Source: Nautilus pompilius
Lineage: Eukaryota > Mollusca > Cephalopoda > Nautilida > Nautilidae
Direction: 5' to 3'
Assembly (NCBI GenBank): GCA_018389105.1
Contig: JACATO010001073.1
Coordinates: 50,001 to 114,000, forward strand
Length of the DNA stretch: 64,000 nucleotides
Under the pieces are notes generated by a model. The model worked only from the letters and a program-made list of their open reading frames with translations, was not told where the DNA came from and searched no databases. This document shows, piece by piece, positions 41,801 to 45,000 of this stretch (its first letter is position 1; every line of letters starts with the position of its first letter). A program made the translations under genes and the position numbers.

Positions 41801-42013
41801 ATGTCGTCCCGGGCGTCGGGCCTGCTGGATACGTGGGTGAACGACCGGCTCCACGACATCCTGGGCATATCCAACGGCTACATCTCGCTCTATCTGACGG
41901 AGCTGGCGTCCAGATCGTCCAGCCCCGAGGACCTGGTCCGGCGGCTGAGCGAGACGGAGACCATCGAGGTGGACGACCTGGTTGTGGGCTTCGCCAGGGA
42001 GCTCTGGAGCAAG
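41801..42013 (+). CDS. DHX16: DHX16 exon 1
   Basis: Residues 1-71, phase 0, donor GTGAGG. Its last ~20 bases and donor are copied in the following minisatellite. Confidence 0.95.
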
Positions 42014-45000
42014 GTGAGGGCGACAGAACCGTCCCAGCTCCCTCCCCAGGGAAGGGGAGGTAGTTGATAGGGTTTGGGGCTTTATGATGGAGAGCTCTGG
42101 AACAAGGTGAGGAGGGCGACAGAACCGTCCCAGCTCCATCCCCACAGGGAAGGGGAGGTAGTTGGTAGGGTTTGGGGTTTATGATGGAGAGCTCTGGAAC
42201 AAGGCGAGCTGGAGGGCGACAGAACCATCCCAGCTCCATCCCCACAGGGAAGGGGAGGTAGTTGGTAGGGTTGGGGTTTTATGATGGAGAGCTCTGGAAC
42301 AAGGCGAGCTGGAGGGCGACAGAACCAACCCAGCTCCCTCCCCACGGAAGGGGAGGTAGTTGGTAGGGTTTGGGGTTTATGATGGAGAGCTCTGGAACAA
42401 GGTGAGCTGGAGGGCAACAGAACCATCCCAGCTCCCTCCCCACAGGGAAGGGGAGGTAGTTGGTAGGGTTGGGGTTTTATGATGGAGAGCTCTGGAACAA
42501 GGCGAGCTGGAGGGCGACAGAACCAACCCAGCTCCCTCCCCACGGAAGGGGAGGTAGTTGGTAGGGTTTGGGGTTTATGATGGAGAGCTCTGGAACAAGG
42601 TGAGGAGGGCGACAGAACCAACCCAGCTCCATCCCCACAGGGGAGGGGAGGTAGTTGATAGGGTTTGGGGTTTATGACGGAGAGCTCTGGAACAAGGCGA
42701 GCTGGAGGGCGACAGAACCGTCCCAGCTCCCTCCCCACAGGGAAGGGGAGGTAGTTGATAGGGTTTGGGGTTTATGATGGAGAGCTCTGGAACAAGGCGA
42801 GCTGGAGGGCGACAGAACCAACCCAGCTCCCTCCCCACAGGGAAGGGGAGGTAGTTCATAGGGTTGGTGGGGTTTTATGACGGAGAGCTCTGGAACAAGG
42901 CGAGCCAGGGACGGGTTGGGGGGGATGACGACAGAACGAACCCAGCTCCTCCGTTGGATGGGGTGGGTGGATGAGTTGGCAGTGATCTGTTTAGGAAGGA
43001 GAGCTCTGGAACAAAGTGAGCTGGGGTGAGGAGGATGACAGAACGAACCCCCACCCCCTGGTAAGGGGAGGTAGTTGGTAGGGTTAGAGTTTTACAAAGG
43101 AGAGCTCTGGAACGAGGTGAGCCGGGAAAGGGGAGACAACGAAACGAACACAGCTTCCCGGGGGGGGGGGTGATTGTTGGTAGAAATCTGTTTACAATAG
43201 AGAGGTTCGGAGCAAGGAAGTGGGGGACATGATAAAACAACTCCACCCCCCCCCCCTGGGGAATGGTGGTGGTGGTGAAGGTTGGTGAACTTTCATTTCT
43301 GTTTGCAATGCAATTCAGCAATATACTTCTTTTTCTGCTGTTGCAATTGAAGCAGGATCTAGTTTATTTGAGTGGTCTGCTATGATCCTAAAGATGTTTG
43401 CATGTAAAAGAACAACAACAGAAAAGCAGCATTCAGCCTCATTTGAAGTTTTTCTTCGATCAGTCTATTAAACAATCTAAAACTGGTTGCAGCATTCTTA
43501 ATGCCATTGCTTTTGGTCCTACTGTGTATTTTAGTGTCCACAGTGCTTATTGTGTTGTTAGGTATTTCATTTTCAATTCTGTATACATTAAATGCATTAA
43601 AAAGAAAGAATTGGTCAAAGAAATTAACCCATCCTTGTTGATATTTAGAATTACAGTCTGTATAACTACAGTGAAAATTGTTCTGCAAGTAATTGTCAAT
43701 CCATAGTAAAAGGTGTCGTATTTATGACAAAAGTTTTACACATTTTTATTTTTACCAATTGTCATTGTGGAATTTCAAATGCTTTATGGAAATCAAGAGA
43801 AAGATTAGGTATATTTCCTTTTTCCAAGTTACTTGTAGCATTCTAAACTTTTTTTCTGGAGATTTTAATATTTTAAACAATTTATACTCATCTGAATGAA
43901 CTGAAAATTCCTCCTTTATTCTACAGTTTGCTCTATTGGTTACAAGGAGAAGCACTGTCTGTGTATTGAAATTGTTTACATATATGCTCCAGTTGTTTTA
44001 TATTAAAGATCTTGAAAATGCATGGGTAATAAATTCTTAAATTTTCAAAGTTTTCATACTTTCTGTAATTGAAGTCCTTATCATTTTTCAAGGTTCCACA
44101 CAAACAACCTACAGTGAAGCCAGCTCGGTTGCAGGAACAAGCAGCTATAGAACTGCAGATGAAGAATAAAAGTTACAAATTGATCTCTGATGATGATGAT
44201 GATGAGGGGGAGGCTGCCAATTATACAACTGCTAAAGTAAAATTATTTATTATTTTTCTTTTTGAAGACTATTTTCTTCTGTAGTATTATCAATATGGAT
44301 ATGCTACTTTAGGTTATATAGGTTGTGACTATACTTTGCTTGATTTTTAATTGTGTGCTTATCTAATTTGGGTCAGTTTACATCACTATTTCTATATTGC
44401 TTTGATTGGTCAGTGTATATAATATAATATATATTAGGTTTATTTTGAGAATATTACTATTAGTGTTGCATAGTTTAGCTCTTTTTCTCTCCACATGTAT
44501 ATATATATATAAACTCTACAAAATTAATTATTCAAAATACATTTACATTTATTTTAAAGTTTTACATTTTTTAATGCCTTAAAACTAGTGTTTACTGCAG
44601 AGATTTTAGTTGAACAACATCTTTCCTATCTTAGATGCTTAAATGAGATCATTTGGTCAGAATGCTTTAGTATTCTGTACTTCAGTATAGGACATTATGT
44701 ACCTAATTTGAGGAGGAAAATTATTATTATTATTTTTAATTTTTAGAGATTGAAAAAGGAAAGGAAACAAAGGCACATACGTAGAAAGCAGCAGTCTTCT
44801 GAAGAGAGTAGTGAAAATGAAGAGTACGTTGTTTCTTCAGTTTCAATTTTGAAAATGTTCAATCTATATTTTCTGCAAGTTTGCTTTAGCAGGGGCAGGG
44901 GGGCACTGTTTTGTATCATTCAGAGAGAATTTTAAGTGGTTAAGCGTTCTTTGAATGATTAGGGATGTTTTGGTCTGTGTGAATACTTCAGTGGTTGTCA

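Follow-up and report, generated by a model that had tools for sequence, protein, structure and literature searches.

The DHX16 locus

The analyzed window, a stretch of 64,000 nucleotides from Nautilus pompilius (contig JACATO010001073.1), contains exons of the spliceosome gene DHX16. The coding part of exon 1 (41801-42013, + strand; 71 codons, ending in phase 0) is joined in frame to exon 2 (44093-44236, + strand) through the exon 1 splice donor AAG|GTGAGG (42014-42019, + strand), which connects to position 44093 in the frame of human DHX16, and intron 1 spans 42014-44092. The identity of the gene was assigned on the basis of matches to the human DHX16 chain 5z56_x: the combined translation of exons 1 and 2 formed a single frame matching this chain (E = 6.1e-20), and a query joined from further exon pieces again retrieved 5z56_x as best match (608 bits). 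Exon 1 had one match in the assembly. Open reading frames located beyond the window resembled, by eye, the C-terminus of DHX16.

Other elements were also observed along the gene. A mariner-type transposase piece was located in intron 2 (45817-46080; HTH_48 of Mos1 transposase, E = 5.8e-14), and open reading frames at 59918-60395 contained peptide stretches like it, by eye resembling a related element in the opposite orientation. Between DHX16 exons, a tandem array with a 59-bp unit was found at 58488-58781 (5 copies, 98% matches). No Rfam match was obtained in the window at gathering scores.

Anatomy of the intron 1 array

A tandem array copying the end of DHX16 exon 1 and its donor was confirmed at approximately 41999-43260, with its start inside exon 1. 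The recurring piece comprised the last 15 bases of the exon together with the donor and ~80 bases from the start of the intron. TRF described 42016-42905 as an array with a period of 100 (9.0 copies, 92% matches), followed by more diverged units up to about 43260. Twelve copies of the donor were counted downstream of that of exon 1, with their first intronic bases at 42107, 42204, 42304, 42402, 42502, 42600, 42697, 42797, 42900, 43016, 43117 and 43217, and the segments between consecutive donors defined units U0 to U11, of 93-116 bp.

Local alignment detected homology from 41999, through the donor and then along the whole unit, so that the units span the exon-intron boundary. This result bears out the proposal of the initial annotation that the repeat was built from the end of exon 1 and its donor, yet the exonic part, previously given as about 20 bases, was found to be 15 bases long (41999-42013, + strand; GAGCTCTGGAGCAAG, in most units GAGCTCTGGAACAAG, 14/15 identical). 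Upstream of 41999, comparison of exon 1 with the unit gave weak matches only, none of them significant (p = 0.125 and 0.35). Since the homology starts within the exon, the coding exon is the likely source or first member of the array. Both GAGCTCTGGARC and RARGYGAG occurred 11 times in 42014-43260, whereas 1000 dinucleotide shuffles yielded on average 0.001 copies of the former and 0.5 copies (4 at most) of the latter. When the assembly (727.6 Mb, 2558 contigs) was searched with the unit, 11 matches were found, all of them at the DHX16 locus, repeat counts in the assembly being lower bounds.

At the end of exon 1 (42008-42013) the codons AGC AAG encode Ser-Lys, while the human protein has Asn-Lys. 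The serine codon AGC was replaced by AAC (Asn) in 11 of the 12 unit copies, and the most distal copy retained AGC. The difference may reflect a change either in exon 1 or in the founder unit.

In order to place the array among other repeats, arrays with a period of at least 20 and at least 4 copies were compiled from the window and 13 further stretches (194 kb, including 10 kb of N). Fifteen merged arrays were obtained, and the DHX16 intron 1 array was the only one with the donor motif in its unit. Nine of the 15 fall in the window, so that array growth is common there, as eight arrays other than the one described here were found. Copies of exon boundaries were also searched in DHX16 itself (12 donors and 10 acceptors; the positions of the exon 6 and exon 8 acceptors are approximate): a close copy nearby was found for the exon 1 donor alone (21/24), and the other 21 sites gave results no better than shuffles.

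Several of the remaining arrays had features of their own. The array at 4663-5833 (37-bp unit, 31.6 copies, 90% matches) carried TGACGTC in its unit, and TGACGTCA-like words were present in the arrays at 1424-1914 and 6716-7065 as well as in a nearby stretch. A 61-bp, CpG-bearing unit formed the array at 27712-28422 (11.7 copies, 93% matches); the CpG observed/expected ratio was below 0.5 in 10 of the 16 4-kb bins of the window.

Donor and acceptor-like sites of the units

The initial annotation had described a ladder of GT and GC donors, and most of this ladder was recovered: 11 of the 12 unit donors kept GT (five) or GC (six), several of them in 9-mers of real DHX16 donors, while one was destroyed. 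The GT donors read AAGGTGAG (three copies), GAGGTGAG and AAAGTGAG, and the GC form was AAGGCGAG. The exon 1 9-mer AAGGTGAGG (AAG|GTGAGG) was shared by two unit donors, at 42107-42112 and at 42600 (+ strand), the 9-mer of exon 13 (GAGGTGAGC) was found in one, and the donor at 43016 carried AAAGTGAGC, the 9-mer of the exon 14 donor; the GT donors other than the exon 1 copies were those at 42402, 43016 and 43117 (+ strand). The GC donors, AAG|GCGAGC at 42204-42209 and likewise at 42304, 42502, 42697, 42797 and 42900, and the destroyed donor, AAG|GAAGTG at 43217-43222, were on the same strand.

The computed energy of pairing with the U1 end was -10.1 kcal/mol for exon 1 and for the donors at 42107 and 42600, -9.6 and -9.7 kcal/mol for those at 42402 and 43117, respectively, -4.6 kcal/mol at 43016 and -5.2 kcal/mol for the GC donors. 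The destroyed donor reached -6.8 kcal/mol, although its cut site has neither GT nor GC. Of the 3361 GT sites on the + strand of the window, 16 paired with U1 at least as well as exon 1. When local folding was modelled, the 9-mer of the exon 1 donor had a mean unpairedness of 0.36, while the values of the 11 intact unit donors ranged between 0.47 and 0.71.

These features were weighed with respect to the possibility that the array acts as a ladder of poison donors, in which the unit donors compete with that of exon 1, divert some of the DHX16 pre-mRNA to decay and thereby reduce DHX16 output, possibly sensing spliceosome activity, a reading that we consider very unlikely. The real DHX16 9-mers among the unit donors are in its favor, and so is a mean unpairedness above that of exon 1 in all 11 intact copies, yet the folding model gave a mixed picture when the whole 9-mer was required to be unpaired, with a chance higher than that of exon 1 for seven unit donors and lower for four. 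Moreover, six of the 11 intact donors are weaker GC forms (-5.2 vs. -10.1 kcal/mol), which is not expected if strong donors had been kept, and one further donor was lost. DHX16 acts after donor recognition, so that any feedback on donor choice would be indirect, which also counts against such a ladder.

Acceptor-like sites were less regular than first described. Rather than being present in each unit, a CCCC(AC)AG|G site was recognized in seven of the 12 units, three of them with the exact sequence CCCTCCCCACAG; the AG was missing in U3 and U5, and the site was unrecognizable in three diverged units. The sites were located before 42148 (42124-42147, + strand) and, on the same strand, before 42050, 42248, 42446, 42641, 42741 and 42841.

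As for the composition of the array, 56 runs of three or more G were counted in its 1247 bp, compared with one in the other 832 bp of the intron, and the five A[AT]TAAA hexamers of the intron were all located downstream of the array. Both features, together with the U1 pairing energies of -9.6 to -10.1 kcal/mol computed for all but one of the five GT unit donors, would suit a contribution of sequence mass in the first intron, whereby many U1 sites and dense G runs assist transcription, recognition of the first exon or splicing of the exon that follows, with the unit donors remaining unused; the effect of repeat length on next-exon skipping reported for ABCA7 (see below) points the same way. 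Nevertheless, more than half of the intact donors (6/11) are weakened GC forms, and a G-rich array was also found at 21355-21926, so that G richness alone need not mean function. We consider a role of this kind very unlikely.

Predicted outcome of unit donor use

When exon 1 was extended to any of the 11 GT or GC unit donors and joined to exon 2, an in-frame stop was reached at 42065-42067 (+ strand), corresponding to codon 89, in 11/11 cases. Mini-exons running from a unit acceptor to a unit donor (acceptors 60 nt or more from 42014, each with a donor over 20 nt further on) were open in none of 38 combinations, all of them being out of frame or stopped. Among the donors tested, 42014 alone yielded DHX16. 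Stop-bearing messages are expected to be degraded by nonsense-mediated decay; given the stop at 42065 and the absence of open mini-exons among those combinations, use of the unit donors would therefore produce only messages expected to be degraded. A stop at the same position in every use tested counts in favor of a poison ladder.

The same combinations were used to evaluate whether the array could represent intron gain by tandem duplication. This candidate was rejected, as exons 1 and 2 are joined as in human DHX16 and 0/38 mini-exons were open.

Divergence among units and the exon-end block

The units fell into two parts. Those closest to the exon, U0 to U8 (42014-42899, + strand), shared 82-100% mutual identity, U3 and U5 being identical, while U9 to U11 and a decayed end (42900-43260, + strand) showed 50-72% identity to the other units. 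This gradient suggests that the side next to the exon is being homogenized and that the far side is decaying.

The identical U3 and U5, and the aberrant assembly reported for a lancelet mirage (PMC3087553), could suggest that the array is in part an artefact of assembly, with a wrong copy number or collapsed haplotypes. However, no other pair of units was identical, and misassembly of young units is an unlikely source of the diverged distal ones; we regard this explanation as extremely unlikely.

Despite the decay of the distal units, the 23-base block formed by the exon end and the donor was kept in three of them. In the diverged copies at 42900, 43016 and 43117, 67 of 69 block positions agreed with a consensus derived from the eight young donor copies (T or C being allowed at +2), compared with 146 of 206 gap-free columns outside the block (Fisher's test, p = 6e-7). 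Taken singly, the diverged copies gave p values of 0.003 to 0.02 for the same comparison, and a scan for the best 23-column stretch picked out the block in all three of them (permutation p = 0.019, 0.008 and 0.034, respectively). Fisher's test treats columns as independent, although neither columns nor copies are, and the copies had been found by this very motif. The fourth diverged copy, at 43217, showed no excess conservation of the block (14/23 vs. 44/77 outside; scan p = 0.95), and among the young copies variation within the block was not significantly lower than in the rest of the unit (2/23 vs. 17/77 variable columns, p = 0.23).

Simple neutral decay does not predict that the block should persist in three old units, and this is the feature that could make the array more than a passenger repeat. 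One explanation would be that selection has kept the exon end and donor of the old units as a poison-donor ladder setting the amount of surviving DHX16 message, tuned by the number of units and by the mix of GT and GC donors. Conservation in the three diverged units favors a ladder of this sort, whereas the fourth copy, in which the block was no better conserved than its surroundings, and the young units, in which it was not significantly less variable, do not, and we judge selection of this kind to be highly improbable. Local recombination or slower change of this piece of sequence could also explain the block.

Origin and significance of the array

The reading that we favor, with a probability of about 0.8, is that the array is a boundary-spanning minisatellite of a known kind, in which the exon 1 donor works and the unit donors are passengers, perhaps with slight unproductive use. 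According to this proposal, tandem duplication of a ~93-bp segment across the junction of exon 1 and intron 1 would have been followed by further multiplication through slippage or unequal exchange, and the 15 bases of the exon end would have been carried along in the units with the donor. Units near the exon would still be homogenized, while those at the far end would have been left behind to decay. Functional message would be made from the donor at 42014. Since pairing with U1 is of similar strength for most GT unit donors and for exon 1, the former may be used in a minor fraction of transcripts, which would then meet the stop at 42065 and probably be removed by nonsense-mediated decay. The array thus most likely arose as a side effect of repeat expansion, with no more than a minor contribution to faulty transcripts, and its presence in a gene with a role in splicing is most likely a coincidence.

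The array adds a spliceosome gene to those known to carry exon-boundary minisatellites. It also offers a natural experiment on how the donor of a first exon prevails over almost identical donors located downstream: as the exon 1 9-mer is shared by two of the unit donors, the 9-mer alone cannot decide which donor is chosen. Were unit donors to be used, the output of DHX16 would vary with the length of the repeat.

Comparison with known systems

A literature search, too loose for absence to be claimed, showed no title on this array among the matches listed; PMC11330336 contains the words DHX16, intron and minisatellite once each. Judging by its title, another study (PMC4039745) connects minisatellites in introns with decisions on alternative splicing in C. 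elegans, which favors a functional reading.

A close parallel was found in the lancelet mirages, described for Adh3, the globins BflGb6 and BflGb9, and TnC, with similar imperfect repeats in PGBD5 (PMC3087553, PMC3902484). Mirages are reported to consist of 10-160 bp units copying an exon boundary, with AG/GT signals in many but not all of them, and to form clusters with homogenized cores and excluded edges, a turnover described for the globin mirages; one mirage was apparently aberrantly assembled in the genome draft (PMC3087553). Likewise, the DHX16 units span an authentic exon-intron boundary, carry splice signals in many but not all copies, and form an array with a homogenized core and an excluded edge. 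Data on Adh3 and RT-PCR of globins suggest that regular splicing is undisturbed by mirages (PMC3087553), and those of Adh and TnC are reported to generate no aberrant mRNAs (PMC3902484), which speaks against a poison ladder. The two cases differ in the gene involved and in that length instability and normal splicing have been reported for the lancelet repeats, while the DHX16 array is described here from its sequence.

In humans, a 25 bp VNTR in intron 18 of ABCA7, with GT as the first two bases of its unit, starts at the exon 18 donor and is polymorphic and disease-linked (PMC5954066). It resembles the DHX16 array in that it begins at an exon's donor and repeats it, while the units differ in length (25 bp vs. 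93-116 bp). An out-of-frame isoform retaining one unit reportedly amounts to about 2 ± 1%, a figure assigned through a "respectively" in the source, independently of repeat length; stop-bearing transcripts increase with cycloheximide, and exon 19 skipping rises strongly with repeat length, 3.2-fold between extremes (PMC5954066). A repeat of this type can thus have an effect even when its unit donors are little used. The human CBS gene carries a polymorphic 31-bp VNTR, c.1444_1467+7(16_21), and where its boundary between intron 7 and exon 8 is duplicated (68 bp), splicing is reported to shift to one of the two copies (PMC2630376). We read the name of the VNTR as 24 coding plus 7 intronic bases, so that its unit would span the donor as that of DHX16 does, being shorter and mostly exonic. 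By its title, a 1995 paper of Turri, Cuin and Porter describes a minisatellite that supplies several donors to an interferon-induced transcript; the gene is reportedly 6-16/IFI6, with a short unit whose donors are used.

Copying of splice signals by tandem duplication, as in the DHX16 array, is also part of the Rogers model of intron gain from a duplicated AGGT segment (PMC4974935) and of human internal tandem repeats at exon-intron boundaries, which may form novel introns (PMC2812944). Taken together, the precedents lean against regulation by unit donors, since splicing is reportedly undisturbed in lancelets and unit retention is about 2% in ABCA7. On the other hand, the ABCA7 repeat, of like anatomy, is reported to affect splicing, as is the CBS duplication, which counts against a purely passenger view. 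Judged by its sequence, the DHX16 array has the anatomical features of the class of exon-boundary minisatellites, and its unit donors appear compatible with use, as in the VNTRs that provide donors.
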